64,000 nt of DNA from Clostridiales bacterium (lineage in GTDB: Bacteria; Bacillota; Clostridia; Oscillospirales; Oscillospiraceae), in assembly GCA_021205695.1 (NCBI GenBank), contig JAJPXB010000019.1, positions 22,544 through 86,543 of the forward strand, given 5' to 3'. Position numbers and translations under genes: made by a program. The notes below the pieces were generated by a model that was not told the origin of the DNA, searched no databases, and worked only from the letters and a program-made list of their open reading frames with translations. Numbering within the stretch: position 1 is the first letter of the stretch; each line of letters starts with the position of its first letter. Shown here one piece after another: positions 17,652 through 37,754 of the stretch.

Positions 17652-18223
17652 TTACAGGATGGGTTCGATCACAGCCCGGAAATACCGATCCAGCTCAACC
17701 GGCGTCTGCTTCATATGCCCCTTGATCCACCACTGCACCATTTCCACAAAGCTGCCCGAGATATGATTGACGAGAAAATCATCCGGCAACTCTGTCCTTT
17801 TCCTGTCAGGCCGGTCGATGAACTGGGTATAGACGAGTCCGTTCAGACTGTCCTTGAAGTAGCGCATGAAGATTTCACTGCTTTCACCGGACAGCAGCCC
17901 TAAAATATTGTAATCATTCTCCTGCAAATGCTGGAGGAGATGGCAAAATACAGGCTCCGGTGTGTTGCCGTCCATGGAAAGGCCGTGGGTGTGGGTACAG
18001 TCCATTGCGCTGTCAATGATATGCCCGAAAAGTTCCTCGCAGAGCGCTCGGAGCAAATCGTCTTTCGTCTCAAAGTGGGCATAAAAAGTCGTGCGCCCCA
18101 CATCCGCTTCGTCGATGATTTCCTGCACTGTGATACGACTGTAGTTTTTTTCTCTAAAAGTATCCCAAACGCCTGAAAGATCGCTGCTCTACCCGTTAAG
18201 TCAAGATTGGAGGAAATCATCAT
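17652..18223 (-). pseudogene. TetR-family regulator, frameshifted in a poly-A tract
   Basis: The open frame to 18128 starts inside the DNA-binding domain (QEIIDEADVGRTTFYAHFETK). The missing N-terminus is present in another frame, LTGRAAIFQAFGILLEKK, reaching back to ATG 18223. The two join smoothly as LLEKKNYSRITVQEI if one base is added to the run of seven A (minus strand) at 18145-18151. So a one-base deletion has split an otherwise intact TetR gene. It could be a true mutation, slippage-tolerant expression, or a sequencing error. It faces the P-type ATPase remnant, its likely former target, with start codons touching. Confidence 0.8.
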
Positions 18224-19161
18224 GCTGAAAAAATGGCTGGACAACGACCCCAAACCCACGCTGGTGTGCGCCTGCATTTCTGTCGTCTCGCTGGTGTTCA
18301 GCCTCGGGGGATGGCTGAAAGATATGCTCCCCATCGACACCGCATGGGTCGCGATTGTGCTGTGCGGCATCCCGATTGTGGTGGGCGCAGTAACGGCGCT
18401 GATTACCGAACACGATGTAAAGGCCGATGTGCTGGTATCCATCCCCGTAGATAAAAAGGCCGGTGACCCGCTGACCAGCGGAACGGTGAACCAGCTCGGA
18501 GCTTTTCCGTGAAAACGGAATAGACCTGGTGGTTACAAAAGACCTTGAGGCGCAATATTATAACCAGGGCGCAACAGTCATTTTGGTATCCATGCGACAG
18601 GAAATCATCGGGCTCATTGCTCTGGCGGATACCGTCAGAGAAGCATCCGCGGATGCGATCAGCGGCCTGAAGGCGCTGGGCATCACGCCGATGCTCCTGA
18701 CCGGCGACAATGAGCAGGCGGCTTCCACCACTGCGGGTAAGGTCGGCATTTCTGAGGTAAAAGCGAACCTCATGCCGGAGGACAAAATGCAGATCATAAA
18801 AGACCATGCAGAACGGAAGATCTGCATGGTCGGGGACGGCGTCAACGATGCCCTGGCGCTCAGCACGGCGTATGCGGGAATTGCCATGGGCGGAATTGGG
18901 AGCGATATTGCAGTGGAATCCACAGACGCGGTGCTGGTCAGCGACGACATCCAGCGGCTGCCCTACCTGTTCAAAATCACCCAAAAGGCCATGCGCAAGG
19001 TGCGGCAGAATATCATCATCGGGCTTGCTATCAACTTTACGGCCATTATCCTCTCGGCAACGGGCCTCCTGGTTCCGACCACGGCGGCAATCGTCCACAA
19101 CTGCGGCTCCGTGTTCGTGGTCGTGAATGCGGCGATGATTCTGAGAGAGAAGGACACATGA
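18222..19161 (+). pseudogene. Remnant of a heavy-metal P-type ATPase (CadA/ZntA-like)
   Basis: The first part (ATG 18222, SD GGAGG) encodes two N-terminal helices ending KADVLVSI, then jumps in frame to the actuator-domain sequence PVDKKAGDPLTSGTVNQLGAF. A second deletion is out of frame: a stop follows, and the reading resumes at ENGIDLVVTKDLEAQ in another frame. The distal part keeps LLTGDNEQA, MVGDGVNDALAL and the last two helices. The TGES loop, the CPC-type ion-binding helix and the DKTG phosphorylation motif are all gone, so it cannot transport ions. Decay of a metal-efflux locus is the simplest reading. Confidence 0.88.
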
Positions 19162-23060: not shown

Positions 23061-23450
23061 ATGAAAAAAGTGATCACCTATGGCACCTTTGATCTGCTCC
23101 ACTACGGACATATCAACCTCCTCCGGCGGGCCAGGGCCCTGGGGGACTACCTCATTGTGGCGCTGTCCACGGATGAGTTCAACTGGAACGAGAAGCAGAA
23201 AAAGTGCTATTTCAGCTACGAGCAGCGCAAGCAGCTGCTGGAGGCGGTACGGTATGTAGACCTGGTCATTCCCGAGACCTGCTGGGAGCAGAAGGCTGCG
23301 GACGTGAAGGAGTTCCGGGTGGACACCTTTGTCATGGGGGACGACTGGAAGGGACAGTTTGACTTTCTCAGCGACCTTTGCCAGGTGGTCTATCTGCCCC
23401 GCACACCGGAGATCTCGTCCTCCCAGATCAAACAGGATCTGGGCCGGTAG
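23061..23450 (+). CDS. tagD: Glycerol-3-phosphate cytidylyltransferase
   Basis: Makes CDP-glycerol from CTP and glycerol-3-phosphate, the building block of glycerol teichoic acids. 129 residues. The cytidylyltransferase motif HYGHINLL near residue 14 and the C-terminal RTPEISSSQIK are intact. CACGGAGG lies upstream of the ATG. It opens the glycan cluster and should supply the two CDP-glycerol glycerophosphotransferases at 50.7 kb, tying the cluster to a glycerol-phosphate polymer. Confidence 0.95.
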   Translation: MKKVITYGTFDLLHYGHINLLRRARALGDYLIVALSTDEFNWNEKQKKCYFSYEQRKQLLEAVRYVDLVIPETCWEQKAADVKEFRVDTFVMGDDWKGQFDFLSDLCQVVYLPRTPEISSSQIKQDLGR

Positions 23451-23465: not shown

Positions 23466-26400
23466 ATGAGTTCTGACGAGAGAATGAAGTGCAGGCAGCA
23501 CAATCTGGGCTGGCTGCTGTATCTGGCGTCGGCGTTCTTCTGGGTGATGAACCGCTACCGCACCAGGCGAATTGCCATGGCGGGGTATACCTTTGCCTCG
23601 GTCATCGTATTCCCCGGGATGCTGTTTCTCATAGGGCGGGAGTCCCGGGGAAAGAGCCGGCAGGAGCTGGTCTCCTCCGGCGTGGGCATGATCCTCCTGG
23701 GCTATGCGCAGAAGGTGCTGCTGTTCTGGTGCGAGACGCTGGCGGGGCGTGACCCGTCGTTTTATCCCTTCTCTACCACAGGCGCGCCCTGGCTGTTCCT
23801 GGTGGGCGGCGTCTGCCTGATCTTGGCGGGGGTGGTCCCCCAGAGAGAGTGGATGAAGAAATGGCTGCTGCCCCTGACAGTGGTCATCGGCCTGGCGGCG
23901 GGCCTGATCAAGCCCATCACCAACTTCCTGTGCCTGGCCCGGCTGGCGGTTTACCTGCCCTTCTTTGTGCTGGGCCGGAGCATGGAGACGGAGAAGCTGG
24001 CCCGCTGGTGCCGCTCCAGATGGAGCAAGCTGCCCTCTCTGCTGCTGGTCGGCGGCTGGGCGGTGGTATGTATCCTGCTCCGGGCCTATTGGAAGGACCT
24101 GCGCGCTTTTATTGACGGGAACACCTGGTATGACGGCGTGGCGGGCCTCTCCGGCGCATGGACAGGCATCCTGGCCCGGCTGGCCTTCTATGTGCTGGCG
24201 GCGGGCCTGATCTGTGCGATCTGGACGTTGACGCCGGACTGGAGAGTTCCCCTGTTTACCGACCAGGGAAAACGGTGGAAGTCCGGCTATTTCTGGTTCT
24301 CCCCCCTGGTCTATGTGCTGACCCTGCCCGGGGGAATCGTTGTGAGAGGGGCGCTGTGCGCCCTGGCCGGGCTGGCGGCGGCCAGCCGACTGGCAAACCG
24401 GCTCCCCGCCCTGTGCCTGAACGTCGTGAGCCGGCTGGACAGAGAGGAGCGCCCGGTCCGGGCGCTGGGACGGAAGCGGTTCTGGCAGCGGCACCGGTGG
24501 GGCCTGAAAATGACCGCCCTGTTTACCGTCCTCTTCCTGGTGGTGGCGGTGGCCTATGTCTACCCCTTCACCTCCAACGGGAAATCTCTGGTCTGGTCCG
24601 TCGACGGCCTGGGCCAGATGTACACGGGGATGCTCTATTTCAAAGAGTATGTCATGAGCGGGCTGAACAGCCTGCTGGAGACGGGCGTCCTCCGCTTCCC
24701 GCAGTGGGACTTCTCCCTGGGCTTCGGTATGTCGCCCCTGGACGCGATCCGGCGGGAGCCGTTCATGCTGCTGTGTCTCCTGGGCAATGAGGAGACCATG
24801 GAGCTCATCGCAGACATCACGGTGATCCTCCGGCTGTATGTCTGCGGCCTGGTGTTTATCTGGTTCTGTGCCACTCTGGGCAAACGGGAGAAGCTCCCCA
24901 TCCTGGCGGGCGCGCTGGCCTTTGTCTGCTCCGGCTTCGCCATCTTTGCCGCCGTCCGGCAGCCGTTCTTCACCACTGTCCTGATGACCTATGGGGTGCT
25001 GACCCTCATCGGGGCGGAACGGTTCCTCCGGCAGCGGAAGTACGGCGTGTTCGTGCTGGCGGCATTTCTGCAGTGCCTGACCGGATACTACTCCGCCTAT
25101 GTAAACGGCGTGATACTGGCGATCTATCTGCTCATCCGGCTGTTCTGCCTTCACGGGAAAAAGGTGGGGAAGATCCTCTCCGAGATCGTGAAGCTGGTGG
25201 GCTTCTATGCCTGGGGAGCGGCCATGGCAGCCTGCGCCCTCCTGCCCGGAATACTGAGCTTTTCCGGCTCTGCCCGGAGCGGGGAGGGGATCGAGTACAG
25301 TATCTTCTACAGCAACAGCTACTACTCCGGCCTGCTGGACGGCCTGAACCTGGAGTTCAGCTCCATCGGCTCCTGGACGCATGTGAGCATGGCAGCGCTG
25401 GCCTGGCTGGCCTGCATCCTGCTGTTCCGGCGCAAGCGGAAGGAGCTCCGCCCGCTGAAGGTGGGACTGGTCGTCTGCAGCGTAGGCATCTGCCTGCCCG
25501 CCTTCGGCCTGGCCGCCAACGGCTTTGCCTACGTCTGCAACCGCTGGGGATATGCCTTCTGTCTGCTGGTGGCCTATATCCTGGTGGAGATGCTGCCGGA
25601 GCTGACGACGCTGAACCGACGGGACAAGCTGGTGCTGACCGGGAGCACGGTGGCCTACTGCGCCGTCTGCGTCACCCAGGACGACGCCACAAAGCTGGTC
25701 GCTTTCGGCCTGGTGACCATGGCGGTGACCATGCTGGTGCTGATCCTCCTGGACGAGACAAAGCTGAAACGGGGACAGCGGATGGGCGTTCTGACCCTGG
25801 TCACGGTGTACACGGTCATGCTCAACGTGTCCAGCTCTCTGCTGCCTGGCGGCGGGGGCTATGCCACCCAGTTCGTGGCCTCCGGAGAGGTGTACGACAC
25901 CATGAGCGGTCAGATGGACGAGGCGCTGTCGACAAAGACGCTGTCAGAGGACGACTCCTTCTACCGCATCGACCAGGATTCGCCCCGCTATAACCAGGGC
26001 GGCGCCATGGACTTCTACAGCACCAACACCTATTACAGCGTCATCCCCTCCAGCATCAGCGAGTACTTTGCAGACGTCTGCCTCAGCAGCCAGAACCACA
26101 CCTACTGCATCCGAAATCTGGACGAGCGCTCCGTCCTGATGTCTCTGGCCGCAGTTAAGTACTATGTGACCGCAAATGAGAGCCGGATCCCCTATGGCTT
26201 TGAGGCGGTGGAATCGGTGGAGAGCGAGGACGGAGGGAGCACGGTGACGGTGTATGAAAACCGGAACGCCCTGCCTCTGGGCTACACCTATACCAGCTAT
26301 GTCACACAGGAGGAATATGAGGCCATGACTCCTCTGGAGCGGCAGCAGGTGATGCTGGAGAGCGCCGTGATCAGCGGGGACACCGATCTTCTGACGCACG

Positions 26401-27185
26401 ACGAGGACACCTACACTGAGACGAGAACGGAGGTCACAGTGAAGTCCTGCGATGACCTGGTCCTGGATCAGGAGGCGCTGACGATCTCCGCCAAGGAGGG
26501 CGGCAGCGTTACCCTGGAGTTCCAGGGAGAGGCCAACTGCGAGACGTATCTGGTGATCACGGGGCTGGAATATGCCAGCAAGAGCTCTTCCGGCACCTGC
26601 GATATCTCCTGCAAGGCAAAGGGCAGCAGCGAGACCCTCACCCTCCGGGGCCAGTCCCAGAGCTATTATTTCGAGACGGATGCGGCGGTATTCCATCTGG
26701 GCTACAGCGAGGAGAGCCAGTCCAGCTGCACCGTGACCTTCAACGATGCGGTGGAAGCCGTCTACGAGGATATCTATGTGGTCTGCGTCCCCATGGACGA
26801 GATGGACAGCCAGGTGGACGCCCTGCGGGAGGTCGTCCTGGAGAACGTGGAGGAGGACGGCGACCGGATCACCGGGACGATCTCTCTGGAGAACAGCCGC
26901 CTGCTGACCTTCTCCATCCCCTATGCCGAGGGCTGGAGCGTCTACGTCAACGGGCAGGAGGCCGAGCTGCTCCAGGTCGACGTTATGTATTGCGGCGTCC
27001 TGCTGGAACCGGGAGAGTATGAGATCGAGCTGCGGTATGAGCAGCCGGGGGCGTCCACGGGGATGCTGATCTCCGCCGTGGCGGTGATCGCCATCCTGCC
27101 GGTGGCCCTGGTGACCGGAGCGGTGAAGCGGCGGCGGAGACCGGCCAAAGCGAAGCATGACCCGGCGGGGAGCGACACGCCCTGA
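23466..27185 (+). CDS. YfhO-family membrane glycosyltransferase with an extra N-terminal membrane region
   Basis: 1239 residues. From about residue 345 on it is YfhO-like: membrane entry VAVAYVYPF, then WSVDGLGQMY, the stretch WDFSLGFGMSPLDAI, about a dozen helices, and a large extracytoplasmic domain (about 780-1190) before a final helix and basic tail. B. subtilis YfhO works with CsbB to glycosylate lipoteichoic acid. Residues 1 to about 340 add some eight helices resembling an acyltransferase-3 membrane domain (HNLGWLLYLASAFFWVMNRY, VYLPFFVLGRSM); this assignment is tentative. The fusion would couple glycosylation and acyl transfer. It starts 15 bases after tagD. Confidence 0.8.
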   Translation: MSSDERMKCRQHNLGWLLYLASAFFWVMNRYRTRRIAMAGYTFASVIVFPGMLFLIGRESRGKSRQELVSSGVGMILLGYAQKVLLFWCETLAGRDPSFYPFSTTGAPWLFLVGGVCLILAGVVPQREWMKKWLLPLTVVIGLAAGLIKPITNFLCLARLAVYLPFFVLGRSMETEKLARWCRSRWSKLPSLLLVGGWAVVCILLRAYWKDLRAFIDGNTWYDGVAGLSGAWTGILARLAFYVLAAGLICAIWTLTPDWRVPLFTDQGKRWKSGYFWFSPLVYVLTLPGGIVVRGALCALAGLAAASRLANRLPALCLNVVSRLDREERPVRALGRKRFWQRHRWGLKMTALFTVLFLVVAVAYVYPFTSNGKSLVWSVDGLGQMYTGMLYFKEYVMSGLNSLLETGVLRFPQWDFSLGFGMSPLDAIRREPFMLLCLLGNEETMELIADITVILRLYVCGLVFIWFCATLGKREKLPILAGALAFVCSGFAIFAAVRQPFFTTVLMTYGVLTLIGAERFLRQRKYGVFVLAAFLQCLTGYYSAYVNGVILAIYLLIRLFCLHGKKVGKILSEIVKLVGFYAWGAAMAACALLPGILSFSGSARSGEGIEYSIFYSNSYYSGLLDGLNLEFSSIGSWTHVSMAALAWLACILLFRRKRKELRPLKVGLVVCSVGICLPAFGLAANGFAYVCNRWGYAFCLLVAYILVEMLPELTTLNRRDKLVLTGSTVAYCAVCVTQDDATKLVAFGLVTMAVTMLVLILLDETKLKRGQRMGVLTLVTVYTVMLNVSSSLLPGGGGYATQFVASGEVYDTMSGQMDEALSTKTLSEDDSFYRIDQDSPRYNQGGAMDFYSTNTYYSVIPSSISEYFADVCLSSQNHTYCIRNLDERSVLMSLAAVKYYVTANESRIPYGFEAVESVESEDGGSTVTVYENRNALPLGYTYTSYVTQEEYEAMTPLERQQVMLESAVISGDTDLLTHDEDTYTETRTEVTVKSCDDLVLDQEALTISAKEGGSVTLEFQGEANCETYLVITGLEYASKSSSGTCDISCKAKGSSETLTLRGQSQSYYFETDAAVFHLGYSEESQSSCTVTFNDAVEAVYEDIYVVCVPMDEMDSQVDALREVVLENVEEDGDRITGTISLENSRLLTFSIPYAEGWSVYVNGQEAELLQVDVMYCGVLLEPGEYEIELRYEQPGASTGMLISAVAVIAILPVALVTGAVKRRRRPAKAKHDPAGSDTP

Positions 27186-27266
27186 CGGACGGCGGCCTGC
27201 GCTGCGGAAACGGCGCAGAATGAGAGAATGAGATAGAGATAGAGAAGAGATATGGAGGTATGCGCA

Positions 27267-28392
27267 ATGATCCCCTTCAACCGTCCGCCCTATACGGGCA
27301 GAGAGCTGGACTATATGGCCCAGGCGGTGCTGGTCAACCACAAGCTGTGCGGCGACGGCCCGTTTACGCAAAAATGTCACGCGCTGCTGGAGCAGCAGAC
27401 GGGCAGCCCCAGGGTGCTGCTGACCACCTCCGGCTCCGACGCCCTAGAGATGGCCGCTCAGGCCGGGGGACGAGGTCATCATGCCCTCCTACACCTTCTG
27501 CTCCACCGCCAACGCCTTTGTGCTTCAGGGAGCGGTGCCGGTATTCGTGGACGTCCGGCCTGACACCATGAACATCGATGAGACTAAAATCGAGGCGGCC
27601 ATCACCGACCGGACCCGGGTCATCTGTGTTGTCCACTATGCGGGCATTGCCTGCGAGATGGACACCGTGATGGACATCGCCCGCCGCCACGGCCTGCTGG
27701 TGGTGGAGGACGCTGCCCAGGGGGTCATGGCCAGCTACAAGGGCCGCGCTCTGGGGAGCATCGGCGACTTCGGCTGCTATTCCTTCCACGAGACGAAGAA
27801 CTACTCCATGGGAGAGGGCGGCGCCGTCCTGGTGAACCATCCGGAGCTGATCGAAAAGGCGGAGACCATCCGGGAGAAGGGCACCAACCGCTCCCGCTTC
27901 CTCCGGGGCCAGGTGGACAAGTACACCTGGGTGGAGTACGGCTCCTCCTATCTTCCCAGCGACATCAACGCCGCCCATCTGTTGGCCCAGCTGGAGATGG
28001 CGGAGGAGATCAACCGGGATCGGCTGGCCTCCTGGCACTATTACGAGGAGGGCCTGGCCCCTCTGCGGGACGAGGGCAGGCTCCGTTTCCTGGAGCCTCC
28101 TGCCGAGTGCGCCCACAATGCCCATATGTTTGCCATCCGGCTGAAGGACCTGGAGGAACGGACTGCTTTGACTGCATTCCTCAGAGAGCGGGATATCGTC
28201 GTCTCCTTCCACTATGTGCCCCTGCACAGCTCTCCTGCCGGGCGGAAGTTCGGCCGTTTCCACGGGGAAAACGTCTATACCGACCGGGAGAGCGACCGCC
28301 TGACCCGTCTGCCCATGTATTACGGTCTGAGCCGGACGGAGCAGGACCAGGTGATCGACGCGATTTTCGACTTCTTCGGACAGCGGCGGTAA
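27267..28392 (+). pseudogene. WecE/DegT-family sugar aminotransferase with a frameshift
   Basis: PLP-dependent enzyme that would convert dTDP-4-keto-6-deoxyglucose to a 4-amino-4,6-dideoxyhexose. The N-terminus (IPFNRPPYTGRELDYM, VLLTTSGSDALEMAA) is in one frame; the rest, from PGDEVIMPSYTF, is in another. The switch is at about 27458-27465, where family members have several more residues between ALEMAA and PGDE, so a small deletion (about 14 bases) is likely. The PLP lysine region HETKNYSMGEGG and all downstream parts look intact. Translation could restart at ATG 27481, but it would lack the phosphate-binding segment. ATG 27267 has a GGAGG site. Confidence 0.82.
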
Positions 28393-28410: not shown

Positions 28411-29649
28411 ATGGAAGAGACTGCGGGAATGCGTATTTCCCAAAAGGAGCAGGAGCGGCGGCTGGGGCTGATGCTCGCCTGTGTGCTTGGGGTGCTGCTC
28501 TTCTTTATGGCCTTTGCGTCTACCTATCATCTGCTGGCAGAGGTGAACGCCAGCGACCTGACGGTCCATCTGGCCTGGGCGGACGAATACAACAAGGGGA
28601 CGCTGCTGCAGGCGCTGCTCACAGGCAACGACCGGCTGTGGCACGCCTGTGTCTGGCTGCTGAACCGGCTGGGGGTGAGCCTGGTCTATGCGGGCTGCCT
28701 GGTGACGGCCGGCTCCGTCGCAGCGGTCTATGTCATCTACAATGCCCTGTTCAAAAGGATGCTTCAGTGGATTGACCGCCGGCTGATCCCGGTTGCGTCT
28801 CTGATTCTGTGTCTGGTGACGGCGATTTATATGCCCTGGTTTAAGACACAGATATACTGGGGACAGGACTCCCCCAATATCTGGCACAATCCCACCCAGA
28901 TGATGGTACGGCCCTTCGCTCTGATCGCCTTCTGGATGACGGTGCGTATCTATCGCCGTCTGCGGGAAGGAGGCGGTTGGCCGACACGGGCCTTTGAGAG
29001 CAAGGGGGAGATCGCAGCCTATGCCTTCGTCCTGATGCTGACGGTGTGGGCCAAGCCCTGCTTCGTCCAGGCATTCATCCCCGGCCTGGCAATTTTGATG
29101 ATCGTGGATCTGATCCGCAGCCGGGGAAAGGCGTTCCTGTTCTGCTTCAAGGTGGCCTGCGCCTATATCCCCGCGGCGATACTGATGCTGATGAAGCTGA
29201 TTTCCGAGTTCGGGACAGGTTCTGAGAGCGGTATCGAGATCGATTTTCTGGGTGTGTGGTCTTACAGCTCGACAAACATCCCCCTCTCCATGCTGTTGCT
29301 GTATGCCTTCCCCCTGTTCGTGTTCATCGTGGACTGGAGACGGCTGGCGTCCAGTGTGGAGGGCCAGCTCTCCCTGTCCAATCTGGCGGTGGCGGTGGTG
29401 ATGAAGACGACTCTGGCGGAGGTCGGAGAGAGCCGGTATCACGGCAACCTGAGCTGGAGCTACGGTCTGGCGGCGGTCTTTGTCTGGTTCCTCGCCACGC
29501 GGAGCTTCCTGGATCTGATGCTCGGCAACCGGCTGACCGGGAGAAAGTACACGGTGGTGGCCATAGTGGGCTGGACGCTGCTGGCTCTGCATCTGTTCAC
29601 CGGCATCGTCTACTACATTAAAATCGTCTCCGGGGCAACTCTGTTCTGA
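28411..29649 (+). CDS. Polytopic membrane protein, copy 1 of a tandem pair
   Basis: 412 residues with roughly ten hydrophobic segments and a short cytoplasmic-like N-terminus rich in charged residues (QKEQERR). After the first helix comes the acidic stretch AEVNASDLTVHLAW, then GQDSPNIWHNPTQMM; early luminal acidic residues of this kind are seen in GT-C glycosyltransferases that use lipid-phosphate sugars. I do not recognise a named family. The position between the sugar genes and a CsbB-type enzyme suggests a glycan-transferring enzyme, as an inference. GGGGAAAGAG precedes the ATG. Confidence 0.7.
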   Translation: MEETAGMRISQKEQERRLGLMLACVLGVLLFFMAFASTYHLLAEVNASDLTVHLAWADEYNKGTLLQALLTGNDRLWHACVWLLNRLGVSLVYAGCLVTAGSVAAVYVIYNALFKRMLQWIDRRLIPVASLILCLVTAIYMPWFKTQIYWGQDSPNIWHNPTQMMVRPFALIAFWMTVRIYRRLREGGGWPTRAFESKGEIAAYAFVLMLTVWAKPCFVQAFIPGLAILMIVDLIRSRGKAFLFCFKVACAYIPAAILMLMKLISEFGTGSESGIEIDFLGVWSYSSTNIPLSMLLLYAFPLFVFIVDWRRLASSVEGQLSLSNLAVAVVMKTTLAEVGESRYHGNLSWSYGLAAVFVWFLATRSFLDLMLGNRLTGRKYTVVAIVGWTLLALHLFTGIVYYIKIVSGATLF

Positions 29650-29678
29650 GAGTGATAGAGAAGAGAGAGTGTGATTCC

Positions 29679-30917
29679 ATGGAAGAGACTACCGGGAAGA
29701 CCATTATGGGACGGGAACAGGAGAGACGGTCGGCGCTGATGATCACCTGTCTGTTGGGAGTGCTGCTGTTTTTTATGGCGTTTTATTCCACTTATCATCT
29801 GCTGGCAGAGGTGGAGGAGAGCGACCTGACGGTACACCTGGACTGGGTGAAGGAGCAGGACAAGTGGAGTATGCTGACAGCATTGCTCTCGGGCAGAGAG
29901 CGGCTGTGGCACGCATGCGTGTGGCTGCTGAACCGGCTGGGCGTAAGCATGGTCTATGCGGGCTGTCTGGTGACAGCGGGCGCCATTGAGGCGGTCTACA
30001 TTATCTACAACGTCCTGTTTCGGGGAATGCTCCAATGGCTGGATCAGCGGCTGATACCCTTTGCCTCCCTGACCCTGTGCCTGGTGTCGGCGATCTATAT
30101 GCCCTGGTATACGACGAAAATATACCGGGGACAGGATTCTCCCAATGCCTGGCACAATCCCACTCAGATTATGGTTCGGGCCTTTGCCCTGATCGCCTTC
30201 TGGATGACGGTGCGTATCTATCGCCGTCTGCGGGAGGGAGGCGGTTGGCCGACCCGGGCTTTTGAGAGCAAGAGGGAGATCGCAGCCTATGCCTTCGTCC
30301 TGATGCTGACGGTGTGGGCCAAGCCCTGCTTTGTTCAGGCATTCATCCCCGGCCTGGCGATTCTGATGATCGTGGATCTGATCCGCAGTCGGGGAAAGGC
30401 GTTTCTGTTCTGCTTTAAGGTGGCCTGCGCCTATATCCCGGCGGCAGTCCTGCTGCTGGTGAATCTCCTGACCAACTTCGGCTCGGACTCCGCCAGCGGT
30501 ATCGAGATCGCATTCCTGGATGTGTGGCTGCATAGCACCAACAGCATTCCCATCTCGTTCCTGCTGCTGTTTGCCTTCCCGCTGTTTGTGTTCATCGTGG
30601 ACTGGAGACGGCTGCTGTCCAGCGTGGAGGGCCAGCTCTCTCTGTCCAATCTGGCGGTAGCGGTGGTGATGAAGGCGGCCCTGGCGGAGACCGGGAAACG
30701 CCGGTATCACGGCAACCTGAGCTGGAGCTACGGCCTGGCGGCGGTCTTTGTCTGGTTCCTCGCCATGCGGAGCTTCCTGGATCTGATGTTCGGCAACCGG
30801 CTGACCGGGAGAAAGTACACGGTGGTGGCCGTGGTGGGCTGGACGCTGCTGGCGATGCACCTGCTCACCGGTATTATCTATTACATTAAAATCGTCTCCG
30901 GTGAGATTTTGTTCTGA
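29679..30917 (+). CDS. Polytopic membrane protein, copy 2 of a tandem pair
   Basis: Same length (412) and topology as the preceding gene. It differs mainly in the first luminal region (AEVEESDLTVHLDWVKEQDK), in KIYRGQDSPNAWHN, and in a loop reading DSASGIEIAFLDVW. The clustering of changes on the non-cytoplasmic side could alter substrate specificity; this is inference. ATG 29679 is preferred to the track start because it gives the same N-terminus as copy 1. The ribosome site is weak (GAGAG). Confidence 0.7.
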   Translation: MEETTGKTIMGREQERRSALMITCLLGVLLFFMAFYSTYHLLAEVEESDLTVHLDWVKEQDKWSMLTALLSGRERLWHACVWLLNRLGVSMVYAGCLVTAGAIEAVYIIYNVLFRGMLQWLDQRLIPFASLTLCLVSAIYMPWYTTKIYRGQDSPNAWHNPTQIMVRAFALIAFWMTVRIYRRLREGGGWPTRAFESKREIAAYAFVLMLTVWAKPCFVQAFIPGLAILMIVDLIRSRGKAFLFCFKVACAYIPAAVLLLVNLLTNFGSDSASGIEIAFLDVWLHSTNSIPISFLLLFAFPLFVFIVDWRRLLSSVEGQLSLSNLAVAVVMKAALAETGKRRYHGNLSWSYGLAAVFVWFLAMRSFLDLMFGNRLTGRKYTVVAVVGWTLLAMHLLTGIIYYIKIVSGEILF

Positions 30918-30946
30918 GCGCACCGGAGGAGAGTGAGCGTGATTTG

Positions 30947-31912
30947 ATGGAAGAAGTTCAACTGATCAGCTTTGTCATCCCCTGCTACAACAGCGAGAGA
31001 TCTGTCTCCCTGGTCATTCAGGAGATTCGGGACGTGGTGGCCCAGCGACCGGAGTACGACTATGAGGTGGTGGCGGTAAACGACTGCTCCCCCGACCATG
31101 TGCTGGACGTGCTGATCGACGAGGCCCGGGCGGACAAAAGGGTAAAGGTGATCGACCTGGCCAAAAACGGCGGCCGCCACAATGCGCTGATGGCCGGTTA
31201 TCATGTGGCGGAGGGGGAATTTGTGGTCTGTGTGGACGACGACTGCCAGTGCCCTCTGGACCGGTTCTGGGATCTGCTGGCTCCCCTGGAGCGGGGGGAG
31301 GCGGACGTGGCCTTTGCCAAATATGTGAAAAAGCAGCAGAGCGGTCTGAAAAACCTGGGGAGTTGGTTCAATGACGTGGGCTCCACCTGGCTGATGGACA
31401 AGCCAAAGGATCTGCATTTCTCCAACTTTGCGGTGATGCGCCGGTTCATCCGGGATGAGGTCATTCGCTATGACAACCCCTATGCCTATGTCTCCGGACT
31501 GATGTTCCGGGCCTCCTCCCGGGTGGTGAACGTGACCATGGAGGACAGAGCGCGTACCATCGGCACCAGCAACTACACCCTGCGCAAGTCCATTCAGCTG
31601 CTGGTCAACTCCTTCACCTCCTTCTCCATCAAGCCCCTGCGGCTGGCCACCTCGGTGGGCGTCCTCTGTGCGCTGATCGGCTTTCTCTACGGGGTGGTCA
31701 TCATTATCCAGCGGCTGGTCCGGCCCATTTATGCGGCGGGCTACAGCTCCATCATGGCTGGGATGCTGTTCATCGGCGGCATGATCATGATCATGCTGGG
31801 CATCATCGGGGAGTATATCGGACGTATCTATATCTGCATCAACAAATCGCCCCAGTATGTGGTGCGAAAGACCTATAACGTGGAAAAAGAGACTCCATCG
31901 GAGGTTCACTGA
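30947..31912 (+). CDS. CsbB/GtrB/ArnC-type polyprenyl-phosphate glycosyltransferase (GT2)
   Basis: 321 residues. A cytoplasmic GT-A domain (SFVIPCYNSE, VNDCSPD, and the metal-binding VDDDCQCP) is followed by two transmembrane helices from about residue 232 and the family tail GEYIGRIYICINKSPQYVV. Such enzymes load a sugar from a nucleotide donor onto undecaprenyl phosphate at the inner face of the membrane. In B. subtilis CsbB acts with YfhO, and a YfhO-like gene is in this cluster, as is a flippase pair. The sugar cannot be read from sequence. Start ATG 30947; a TTG one codon earlier is possible. Confidence 0.9.
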   Translation: MEEVQLISFVIPCYNSERSVSLVIQEIRDVVAQRPEYDYEVVAVNDCSPDHVLDVLIDEARADKRVKVIDLAKNGGRHNALMAGYHVAEGEFVVCVDDDCQCPLDRFWDLLAPLERGEADVAFAKYVKKQQSGLKNLGSWFNDVGSTWLMDKPKDLHFSNFAVMRRFIRDEVIRYDNPYAYVSGLMFRASSRVVNVTMEDRARTIGTSNYTLRKSIQLLVNSFTSFSIKPLRLATSVGVLCALIGFLYGVVIIIQRLVRPIYAAGYSSIMAGMLFIGGMIMIMLGIIGEYIGRIYICINKSPQYVVRKTYNVEKETPSEVH

Positions 31913-34450: not shown

Positions 34451-34810
34451 TTGATCGATCAATTCTTATCCAAAAAGCGAAATCTGTACCTGATGGTGGC
34501 CTTTGTCATCTTTATCGAGAGCCTGAGCACAGCGCTGCTCAAGATGGCGGGCCAATATCCCACCCTGTCCTTCGAGTTCTGTATGTTCTACCTGGTTTCG
34601 GTGGCCATCTTCGGTGTGGACGCCATCTGCTGGCAGCTGATGCTGGAGCGGATGCCCCTGGGAACTGCCTATATGCGAAAGGGCGGGACCTACGTTCTGT
34701 TCTTCTTCTGGGCGGTGGCGCTGTTCCACGAGACAATCACCGTTCAGAATATCATTGGCATGGCAATTATCATTTTGGGAATGGTGGTGAGTATGTCCGA
34801 TGACCATTAG
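34451..34810 (+). CDS. Small four-helix transporter subunit, ArnE/SMR-like (putative lipid-sugar flippase)
   Basis: 119 residues with four transmembrane helices in EmrE/EamA-half style: FVIFIESLSTALLKMAG in helix 1 and GTAYMRKGGTYVLFFFWAVALF later, ending in a short polar tail. TTG 34451 is the start, with GGGAGG about ten bases upstream. It overlaps the next, related gene by 11 bases. Paired small subunits of this type (ArnE/ArnF) flip undecaprenyl-phosphate sugars, which fits the CsbB-like gene upstream. A drug-export role is less likely in this context. Confidence 0.75.
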   Translation: MIDQFLSKKRNLYLMVAFVIFIESLSTALLKMAGQYPTLSFEFCMFYLVSVAIFGVDAICWQLMLERMPLGTAYMRKGGTYVLFFFWAVALFHETITVQNIIGMAIIILGMVVSMSDDH

Positions 34811-35186
34811 CTATCTGTATGCCGTAGCCTCCGTGCTGGTGGCCGTCGTGGGGCAGCTCCTGCTGAAATCCGAGGCGGGCCGGGAGCACAGCTCCTTCCT
34901 CGGAAAGTACCTGAATGTCCGGGTCATTACCGCCTATGTGCTGATGGTGGTGTCCCTCTTTTTTAACGCATTGGCCCTGCGGGATCTGCCCCTGTCGGTG
35001 CTGCCCTGCATCACCTCCACCAGCTTTATCTGGATCATTATCCTGTCCGCCGTCTGCTTCAAGGAGAAGCCCACTGTGAAAAAGGTGGTGGGCGCGCTGC
35101 TCATTATCGTGGGCATCATCGTCTCCCGGGTAGATTTCCAGGAGCTCTCGGCGGCGATCGGCCTGACGGCGGTATTGGGAGGCTGA
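34800..35186 (+). CDS. Small four-helix transporter subunit, ArnF/SMR-like
   Basis: 128 residues, four helices: SYLYAVASVLVAVVGQLLLK with the SMR-like QLLLK ending, ALALRDLPLSVLPCITSTSFIWIII, and GALLIIVGIIVS. It is co-translated with the preceding subunit and differs from it enough to form a heterodimer, as ArnE and ArnF do. The role as the second half of a lipid-linked sugar flippase is inferred from fold and context. Confidence 0.75.
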   Translation: MTISYLYAVASVLVAVVGQLLLKSEAGREHSSFLGKYLNVRVITAYVLMVVSLFFNALALRDLPLSVLPCITSTSFIWIIILSAVCFKEKPTVKKVVGALLIIVGIIVSRVDFQELSAAIGLTAVLGG

Positions 35187-35190
35187 GAAA

Positions 35191-35763
35191 ATGAAAAATG
35201 CCCTGCAACGGCTGGTGCAGATGATCTTCGGACTGACCCTGTTCGAGCTGCCCGGCCTGAACAAGCTGCGGATCTGGGCCTATCGGGCGGTGTTCGACAT
35301 CGGCCCCAATCCCAGCTACATCTCTAACCATGTCACCATCCTCCTGGGCCATCGCCGGACAGGGGAGAGCAAGACCCCGGATACGACGCCCCATACCATC
35401 AGGATCGGCGCCCGGGTGGGCCTGTCTGCCAACGTGCAGATCGACTATGTGGGCGGCGTGGTCATCGGGGACGACGTGTGGTTCTCCGAGGGGGCCAAGG
35501 TGCTGACCCACGACCACAACTTAGGCCCGGAGCGGGTGAAGCTGACGCCGGAGAGCATGCCGGTCTCCCATCTGATCGTGGGGGACGGGGCGTGGATCGC
35601 GGCCCGGGCGGTCATCCTGCCCAGCTGCAACTATATCGGGAAGAACGCCATCGTAGGCTCCGGCAGCATCGTGACCCACGATGTGCCGGACAATACGGTG
35701 GTGGCGGGCAATCCCGCCCGGGTGCTGCGGGTGCTTCAGCCCGAGGAGTATACCGTGCCCTGA
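35191..35763 (+). CDS. Left-handed beta-helix acetyltransferase
   Basis: 190 residues. Hexapeptide-repeat turns are visible from about residue 70: IRIGARVGLSANVQI, VVIGDDVWFSEGAKVLTHDH (a catalytic His candidate), LIVGDGAWIAARAVIL, IGKNAIVGSGSIV, ending VVAGNPARVLR. This is the LacA/maltose-acetyltransferase-like class that acetylates sugars from acetyl-CoA. In a dTDP-amino-sugar cluster it may N-acetylate the amino sugar, like the hexapeptide enzymes in Fuc3NAc pathways, or O-acetylate a glycan. It starts five bases after the flippase subunit. Confidence 0.82.
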   Translation: MKNALQRLVQMIFGLTLFELPGLNKLRIWAYRAVFDIGPNPSYISNHVTILLGHRRTGESKTPDTTPHTIRIGARVGLSANVQIDYVGGVVIGDDVWFSEGAKVLTHDHNLGPERVKLTPESMPVSHLIVGDGAWIAARAVILPSCNYIGKNAIVGSGSIVTHDVPDNTVVAGNPARVLRVLQPEEYTVP

Positions 35764-35814: not shown

Positions 35815-36738
35815 ATGAAAGGAATCATTCTGGCCGGCGGCTCCGGTACCCGGCTGTATCCCCTGGCCCGGGTCACATCCAAGCAGCTGCTCCCGGTGTA
35901 TGACAAGCCCATGATCTACTATCCCCTCTCCACCCTGATGCTGGCAGGGATACGGGATATCCTCATCATATCCACGCCCCAGGACATCCCCCGGTTCCGG
36001 GAGCTGATGGAGGACGGGAGCCAGTTCGGCGTCAACCTCTCCTATGCGGTGCAGCCCAAACCGGAGGGGCTGGCCCAGGCGTTCCTCATCGGAGAGGAGT
36101 TCATCGGGGACGACAGCTGCGCCATGATATTGGGAGATAACATCTTTTACGGCAGCGGCTTCTCCCACACCCTCCGCTCTGCAACGCGGGCGGCCCGGCG
36201 GGGCAAGGCCACCGTCTTTGGCTACTACGTCAACGACCCGGAGCGGTTTGGCGTGGTGGAATTCGACGGGGACGGCAAGGTGATCTCCGTGGAGGAAAAG
36301 CCGGAGCATCCCAAGAGCAACTACGCCATCACCGGCCTGTATTTCTATCCCGCCGGGGTGGCGGAAAAGGCCAGACAGGTGAAATTCTCTCCCCGGGGAG
36401 AGCTGGAGATCACCTCCCTCAATGAGCTCTATCTGAACGAGGGGAATCTGTCGGTGGAGCTGCTGGGCCGGGGCTATGCCTGGCTGGATACCGGTACCAT
36501 GGACAGTCTAGTGGAGGCCGCCCTGTTCGTGCGCATGGTGGAGCAGCGCCAGGGCATCAAGATCTCCGCCCCGGAGGAGATCGCCTACCGCTATGACTGG
36601 ATCGACCGGGACGCCCTGATGGCCTCCGCCGAGAAATATGGGAAATCCCCCTACGGCCACCACCTGAAAAACGTGGCGGACAGCAAGGTGATCAGCTCGG
36701 TGCGAAGAAGAGACGACGGGAGGAAGTCGCTGAGATGA
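35815..36738 (+). CDS. rmlA: Glucose-1-phosphate thymidylyltransferase
   Basis: Forms dTDP-glucose from dTTP and glucose-1-phosphate, the entry step to dTDP-deoxysugars. 307 residues. The N-terminal signature [20 protein letters not shown] and [15 protein letters not shown] are diagnostic; GDNIFYG and [13 protein letters not shown] follow at the expected places. AGGAGG lies upstream, and the stop overlaps rmlB by four bases. Confidence 0.96.
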
Positions 36739-37754
36739 CATACATCGTGACCGGCGGGGCCGGGTTTATCGGCTCCAACTTTATCTTCTATATGCGGAAG
36801 CAGCACCCGGAGGATCGGATCGTCTGCCTGGATAAGCTGACCTATGCGGGCAACCTCTCCACCCTGGCTCCGGTGATGGACGACCCCGGCTTCCGGTTTG
36901 TCCGGGGCGACATCTGCGACAGGGCGGCGGTGGAGCGGCTCTTCGAGGAGGAGCATCCCGACGTGGTGGTGAACTTCGCCGCGGAGAGCCATGTGGACCG
37001 CTCCATCGAGGACCCGGGCATCTTCCTCCAGACCAACATCATCGGCACCGCCACTCTGATGGACGCCTGCCGGAAATACGGCATCACCCGGTATCACCAG
37101 GTCTCCACCGACGAGGTCTACGGCGACCTGCCCCTGGACCGGCCCGACCTGTTCTTCACCGAGGAGACGCCCATCCACACCAGCTCTCCCTACAGCTCCT
37201 CCAAGGCGGGGGCTGACCTGCTGGTGCTGGCCTATCATCGCACCTACGGTCTGCCGGTGACGGTGAGTCGTTGCTCCAACAACTACGGCCCCTACCATTT
37301 CCCGGAGAAGCTCATCCCCCTGATGATCGCCAACGCGCTGAACGACAAGCCCCTGCCCGTCTACGGCGAGGGAAAAAACGTCCGGGATTGGCTGTATGTG
37401 GAGGATCACTGCAAGGCCATCGACCTGGTGGTGCGCCAGGGCCGGGTGGGCGAGGTGTACAACATCGGCGGCCACAACGAGATGGCGAACATCGACATCG
37501 TAAAGCTCATCTGTCACGAGCTGGGCAAGCCGGAGAGCCTCATCACCTTTGTCACCGACCGGAAGGGCCACGATATGCGCTACGCCATCGACCCCACCAA
37601 GATCCACGACGAGCTGGGCTGGCTGCCGGAGACAAAGTTCCGGGACGGCATCAAAAAGACCATCCGGTGGTATCTGGACAACCGGGAGTGGTGGGAGACG
37701 ATCATCTCCGGAGAGTACCAGAACTATTACGAGAAAATGTACGGAAACCGGTGA
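36735..37754 (+). CDS. rmlB: dTDP-glucose 4,6-dehydratase
   Basis: Converts dTDP-glucose to dTDP-4-keto-6-deoxyglucose using bound NAD. 339 residues, extended SDR fold: [10 protein letters not shown] at the N-terminus, the catalytic STDEVYGDL segment, and YSSSKAGAD with the YxxxK pair. It is the last gene of the cluster. No rmlC or rmlD follows, so rhamnose is not the product here; the keto-sugar most naturally feeds the WecE-like aminotransferase gene upstream. Confidence 0.96.

Follow-up and report, generated by a model that had tools for sequence, protein, structure and literature searches.

The gene at positions 23466-27185 on the forward strand of the window (the whole 64,000-nucleotide stretch of the Clostridiales bacterium contig JAJPXB010000019.1 analyzed here) probably encodes a YfhO-family GT-C glycosyltransferase that carries a pseudo-acyltransferase as an N-terminal accessory domain (N-domain). 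It is one open reading frame (ORF) of 1239 residues with an ATG start and no internal stop. The purine-rich stretch gagagggagaaagag, which resembles a ribosome-binding site, lies just 5′ of the ATG, and the ATG itself is 15 nt past the stop codon of a TagD-like gene. Pfam placement of the YfhO domain leaves approximately 345 residues ahead of it. An earlier note on this DNA had described a YfhO-like protein of this size and position, with an extra N-terminal membrane domain and longer than usual for its family. Size and coordinates were correct; in the rest of the class and phylum, most YfhO frames have ~800-1050 residues.

The N-domain is homologous to the acyltransferase-3 family (AT3; Acyl_transf_3, PF01757), a relationship that is well supported by comparison of its relatives. 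When residues 1-345 of the window protein were scanned alone, no significant Pfam or NCBIfam match was obtained. Of the two parts for which the earlier note had proposed profile searches, the C-terminal one was assigned to YfhO, whereas residues 1-345 did not return Acyl_transf_3, and the homology became visible only through orthologues. We searched for the N-domain in 59 related genomes and retrieved and read the matches, which gave 25 orthologous N-domains (22 from fused genes and three stand-alone copies). Scanned singly, 8 of these 25 matched PF01757 at E-values up to 0.1 (best, 6e-7), and all 12 stand-alone AT3 paralogues from the same genus matched it (best, 1.2e-22). When the 25 orthologous domains were aligned with the 12 paralogues by hhalign, the match spanned 267 columns, with a probability of 99.94% and E = 6.2e-37.

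The AlphaFold2 (AF2) model of the window N-domain had a mean predicted local distance difference test score (pLDDT) of 83.3 and a predicted template modeling score (pTM) of 0.85, and contained about ten membrane helices. A stand-alone AT3 paralogue modeled as a control (pLDDT 80.7, pTM 0.83) had nearly the same helix boundaries. The eight helices counted in the earlier note should therefore be revised to about ten, although a hydropathy scan showed seven clear peaks. Its remark that the N-terminal pattern recalls acyltransferase-3 was right as to kinship, on the evidence of hhalign, the PF01757 matches of orthologues and paralogues, and the AF2 layout. As part of the overall explanation, we consider it likely that the N-domain descends from an AT3 protein of the fucose-acetylase-like kind and still comprises an entire AT3/TmAT-fold domain.

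Three motifs are shared by AT3 proteins, DxxR-x10-H (helix 1), FxxxxG (helix 2) and SxxxY (helix 9), and their residues line the acyl-coenzyme A (acyl-CoA) site (PMC12423673, PMC9833829). To compare these positions, the 25 orthologous N-domains and the 12 stand-alone paralogues were realigned. The Asp, Arg/Lys and His of the helix-1 DxxR/K-x10-H motif were each found in 0/25 N-domains and in 11/12 paralogues. The His of the FHMP motif and the Phe in transmembrane helix (TMH) 2 were likewise absent from all N-domains, so that five positions were lost that are kept in 11-12 of the 12 stand-alone proteins. The His column contained mostly W or Q, and also V, S or F, with no consistent polar substitute. 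In contrast to its Phe, the Gly of the TMH2 FxxxxG motif was present in 25/25 N-domains, and the same holds for one Arg and for several further Gly and Pro residues. At the TMH9 SxxxY motif, Ser/Thr was gone from every N-domain, but Tyr was kept in 22 and replaced by W in one more (23/25 aromatic). If the domain were decaying at random, one would not expect precisely its active-site residues to be lost in all lineages and its scaffold to be spared.

Judged by these motifs, the N-domain is not a canonical O-acyltransferase, and it has most likely lost both acyl-CoA binding and acyl transfer. The earlier note had suggested an O-acyltransferase fused to a glycosyltransferase. Homology to Acyl_transf_3 fits that reading, but the catalytic and acyl-CoA-binding residues of helices 1 and 2 are missing from the window protein and from all orthologous domains, and the TMH1-Arg among them is essential in OafB, OacB and HGSNAT (PMC12423673). 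These residue losses are well supported; on them we rejected a working canonical acyltransferase, which we consider very improbable.

Both the N-domain and the YfhO part are under purifying selection. Among 13 pairs of fused genes, the ratio of nonsynonymous to synonymous substitutions (dN/dS) ranged from 0.08 to 0.36 in the N-domain and from 0.09 to 0.29 in the YfhO part, and it was 0.21-0.26 among the three solo N-domain copies; these values come from simple pairwise Nei-Gojobori counting and are rough at high dS. Because the pairwise ratios are low in both parts, both are constrained. If the N-domain were an inert relic of a chance fusion that is now being lost, the damage seen in some copies (a frameshift in genome G023, an internal duplication in G029), the divergence of the domain to ~24% identity within the genus, and the ability of genome G013 to manage without it would be accounted for. 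However, such a relic should not show a dN/dS of ~0.2, similar to that of the YfhO part, nor an open frame maintained in 22 complete fusions and three stand-alone copies, and we regard this explanation as quite unlikely.

The genus of the window genome, an uncultured Clostridia genus, comprises 32 genomes including its own. The complete AT3-like plus YfhO frame was present in 22 of them (the window genome and 21 others) with a conserved junction, and three more congeners had damaged or truncated fusions (frameshifted near the start in G023, at a contig edge in G021, internally duplicated in G029), so that both parts lie in a single gene in 25/32. In G002, G004 and G028 the N-domain stood by itself, and their assemblies contained no YfhO at all; completeness was 94% for G004, 99% for G028 and only 61% for G002. 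The N-domain was missing from G010, G011, G013 and G030. Because the same two-part ORF is complete in 21 other species of the genus, its excess length is not due to chance or to an annotation error. The window genome is a draft of 82 contigs and the neighboring WecE gene is frameshifted, as might be expected if assembly or gene calling had joined two genes; however, such an artefact would have to recur in the same continuous frame with the same junction in all of the 21 other copies. We therefore rejected it as extremely improbable. Separate genes in relatives, which the earlier note had named as evidence against a fused protein, were found only at the margins (one genome whose corresponding operon has an unfused YfhO, and three with only the AT3-like part), in contrast to the 25 single-gene congeners.

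Outside the genus, no fusion was found in 301 genomes of the family, where the other profile matches were ordinary frames of 298-615 residues. In the class (291 genomes) and the phylum (250 genomes), the matches listed showed no comparable N-terminal extension of YfhO, as judged by open-frame length, apart from a 1602-residue frame (G405:C192). A limited full-text search of the literature turned up no fusion of an AT3 domain with a GT-C glycosyltransferase or with YfhO. The fusion architecture is most likely genus-specific, and it is undescribed within the literature searched.

In a phylogenetic tree, for which the program warned of long branches, the stand-alone AT3 proteins formed one fully supported group. 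Another clade with full support united the three solo N-domain copies with three fused ones, which suggests that the YfhO part was lost in the lineage of the solo copies (G002, G004 and G028). The solo proteins have ~351 residues (loci L055 in G002, L054 in G004 and L053 in G028), and an SseB-domain gene follows in L053.

The YfhO half matched its Pfam profile with 301.9 bits (cut-off, 28.5) over profile positions 4-835 of 835. In NCBIfam, the PgfM2 and PgfM1 models matched it weakly (7.2e-16 and 5.2e-9) and far under their equivalog cut-offs. W377, D380 and G381 were invariant in 24/24 YfhO parts, and a DG loop was also present in 4/5 of the unfused YfhO proteins of the genus that were looked at. 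Because these residues are kept throughout, the YfhO half is probably an active glycosyltransferase. Judging from the operon and the family, this domain would transfer a sugar from its lipid carrier to an acceptor outside the cell.

Genome G013 provided a natural comparison (locus L078, G013:C29:11000-27000). It has the same operon, with 77% identity in WecE, 73% in GT2, 75% in the ATP-grasp protein and 78% in the PaaK-like protein, but its YfhO is a 932-residue frame without the AT3-like domain and only 29% identical to the YfhO part of the window protein. It looks as if the glycosyltransferase had been swapped within an otherwise 73-78% identical operon. Because the G013 operon runs with an unfused YfhO, the AT3-like domain is not needed for the pathway as such. 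Together with the three genomes that have only the N-domain, this suggests that the role of the N-domain is separable and not obligatory for sugar transfer.

Several points weigh against an N-domain that is catalytically dead and serves the YfhO half. Polar residues are still present in it, among them R238 and Y242 as well as the TMH9-Tyr. GWT1/PIGW proteins are acyltransferases although they lack both the DxxR Asp and the His found in the related HGSNAT family (PMC12423673), so that loss of motif parts is no proof of inactivity. G002, G004 and G028 keep the N-domain without YfhO, WecE or an orthologous GT2; unless these solo copies are recent relics, the role of the domain is therefore not only to serve the sugar pathway. 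Finally, structure prediction, which the earlier note had proposed for the N-terminal helices, gave the layout of the AT3 control, but a Foldseek search with the window model returned nothing at E ≤ 0.001 from the Protein Data Bank and a viral library. The genuine AT3 control had no confident matches in the viral library either, which makes this outcome uninformative on the AT3 assignment, neither for nor against it. A viral Foldseek match, A0A345N001 (probability 0.84), was not relied on, as it was missing from the best 50 of the AT3 control. When the fused and the stand-alone alignments were used as profiles against solved structures, nothing matched.

Two further explanations were considered. 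The N-domain might still be an acyltransferase that works through non-canonical residues like GWT1/PIGW, acylating the sugar transferred by YfhO or the recipient polymer. The TmAT-like layout with its retained TMH9-Tyr, the purifying selection, the GWT1 precedent and an operon that makes an amino sugar open to acylation are all compatible with this. However, the D, R/K and H, the FHMP His, the TMH2-Phe and the T of T/SxxxY are all gone in 25/25 domains with no consistent polar replacement for the His, and the operon already has a soluble hexapeptide-type transferase; we consider such an enzyme rather unlikely. Another tentative and rather unlikely reading is that the domain has been neofunctionalized, its emptied acyl-CoA channel now binding or conducting an undecaprenyl-linked amino sugar, an acceptor polymer or a non-CoA acyl donor, and thereby coupling modification and transfer in one polypeptide. 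The explanation that we prefer, a pseudo-acyltransferase acting as an accessory domain, is the probable one, and its accessory role is most likely but is the weakest step. The dead AT3-like domain would lie in the membrane beside YfhO as a binding module, whose ligand would be the acceptor of the sugar, its lipid-linked donor or another protein.

The features of the fusion gene and of its neighborhood are listed in Table 1. TagD was a same-strand neighbor in many fused loci, and in some relatives a gene of the CDP-glycerol glycerophosphotransferase type lay just upstream of the fusion. In each of the 22 fused loci from outside the window that were compared, the fusion had a WecE-like aminotransferase as its neighbor; in other fused loci WecE is intact (~380 residues in one frame) and directly downstream. 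Its frameshift in the window may be either an error of the draft assembly or a real mutation. A GT2-related ORF was present in 19/22 fused loci within the region read. An ATP-grasp protein and a PaaK-like protein are encoded between GT2 and the EamA/SMR pair.

Table 1. Coordinates of the fusion gene's parts and of neighboring genes in the window
Feature	Position	Strand	Evidence
TagD-like glycerol-3-phosphate cytidylyltransferase, probably in one operon with the fusion gene and 15 nt upstream of it	23061-23450	+	TIGR01518, 202.6 bits (cut-off 165.4)
AT3-like N-terminal domain (predicted TmAT fold), residues 1-345, lacking the catalytic and acyl-CoA motifs of AT3	23466-24500	+	hhalign; PF01757 matches of orthologues; AF2 layout; catalytic columns 0/25
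Short inter-domain linker	24501-24524	+	Alignment of relatives; AF2 pLDDT <50 at residues 328-345
YfhO domain (PF09586), residues 354-1203, GT-C type membrane glycosyltransferase	24525-27074	+	Pfam, E = 1.6e-89
W377-x-x-D380-G381 loop behind first YfhO helix, candidate catalytic Asp of GT-C fold	24594-24608	+	Invariance in YfhO parts; catalytic role inferred
WecE-type dTDP-4-amino-4,6-dideoxy-sugar transaminase, frameshift-split (27252-27563 / 27481-28392)	27260-28392	+	3′ part alone: NF008687, 494.9 bits (cut-off 375); TIGR02379, 487.6 (cut-off 434.85)
Multi-helix membrane protein, tandem paralogue 1	28411-29649	+	No Pfam/NCBIfam match
Multi-helix membrane protein, tandem paralogue 2, visibly similar to preceding ORF	29652-30917	+	No Pfam/NCBIfam match
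GT2 with C-terminal membrane helices, PgfS/ArnC-like	30944-31912	+	PF00535, 3.4e-25; NF047588 PgfS, 2.9e-45, and ArnC, 1.2e-39, both under equivalog cut-offs
Two small EamA/SMR proteins, ArnE/ArnF-like putative flippase pair	34451-34810, 34800-35186	+	EamA, 9.5e-8 (second protein); ArnF/ArnE best NCBIfam matches, under cut-off
Soluble hexapeptide-type transferase	35191-35763		
RmlA	35815-36738	+	TIGR01207, 465.5 bits (cut-off 360.65)
RmlB	36735-37754	+	TIGR01181, 497.2 bits (cut-off 365.1)

Within the fusion gene, the alignment of relatives showed a conserved F[WY]QRH-type motif immediately N-terminal of the linker. ORFs related to the pair of tandem membrane proteins were seen at five other loci of the genus. 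Further upstream in the window, 18207-19161 (+) resembles, by eye, pieces of a P-type metal ATPase in two frames with the central part missing. Other YfhO genes of the genus stand beside a GT2 gene in L080 (G014), L081 (G021) and L082 (G016), and in L080 and L081 a small membrane protein that by eye resembles a GtcA-type flippase is next to YfhO. These look like classical three-part systems that coexist with the fused one.

We infer the order of the pathway, the identity of the sugar and the acceptor as follows. RmlA and RmlB would produce dTDP-4-keto-6-deoxyglucose, which WecE would aminate to a dTDP-4-amino-4,6-dideoxyhexose. The PgfS/ArnC-like GT2 would load the amino sugar onto undecaprenyl phosphate and the ArnE/F-like pair would flip the lipid-linked product, after which the YfhO domain would transfer the amino sugar outside the membrane to a cell-surface acceptor. 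Because TagD is adjacent, this acceptor is plausibly a polymer that contains glycerol phosphate. The window protein, a gut-bacterial enzyme, is predicted to decorate the cell surface with an unusual amino sugar. Its N-domain is a clear candidate for a membrane pseudoenzyme, a whole domain of ten predicted helices that lacks the known active-site residues of helices 1 and 2, although purifying selection has acted on it in 20 or more species. Annotating such proteins as AT3-like would lead to a false prediction of O-acetylation. The unfused YfhO of G013 and the three congeners with only the dead domain make the contribution of the N-domain testable by comparison.

Multi-component glycosylation systems of the CsbB-GtcA-YfhO kind have been reviewed (PMC8035078). 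Like the systems of Bacillus subtilis, Listeria monocytogenes and Staphylococcus aureus, the window operon combines a full-length YfhO with a GT2 (GT-A) partner, in a setting that fits the glycosylation of cell-surface polymers and with the same multi-component logic. It differs in the length of the protein and its extra ten-helix AT3-like domain, in an ArnE/F-like EamA/SMR pair that within the operon takes the place of a GtrA/GtcA-type flippase, and in the sugar, which is N-acetylglucosamine in those systems and a predicted 4-amino-4,6-dideoxyhexose here. Among named NCBIfam models, the YfhO part came closest to PgfM1/PgfM2 and GT2 to PgfS, which belong to protein glycosylation in Streptococcus mutans; all of these matches were far under equivalog cut-offs. 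To our knowledge, no AT3-like domain has been reported in PgfM proteins.

With the AT3/TmAT superfamily (PF01757; OafA, OafB, OatA and fucose 4-O-acetylase-like proteins), the N-domain shares profile homology, the ten-helix layout as predicted by AF2, structural Gly and Pro residues and, in most copies, the TMH9-Tyr, but it differs by the loss of DxxR/K-x10-H, the FHMP-His and the TMH2-Phe. The fusion partners common in AT3 proteins are SGNH and alanine racemase domains (PMC9558356, PMC9833829), whereas the partner in the window protein is a GT-C glycosyltransferase. In the Arn pathway (ArnB-ArnC-ArnE/F-ArnT), which places 4-amino-4-deoxy-L-arabinose (Ara4N) onto lipid A, an aminotransferase, a membrane-linked GT2, an SMR flippase pair and a GT-C transferase are likewise found in one operon. 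Lipid A is not expected in an organism of the class Clostridia, and the window operon departs from the Arn pathway by a dTDP-hexosamine (WecE, Rml) in place of UDP-Ara4N and by YfhO in place of ArnT.

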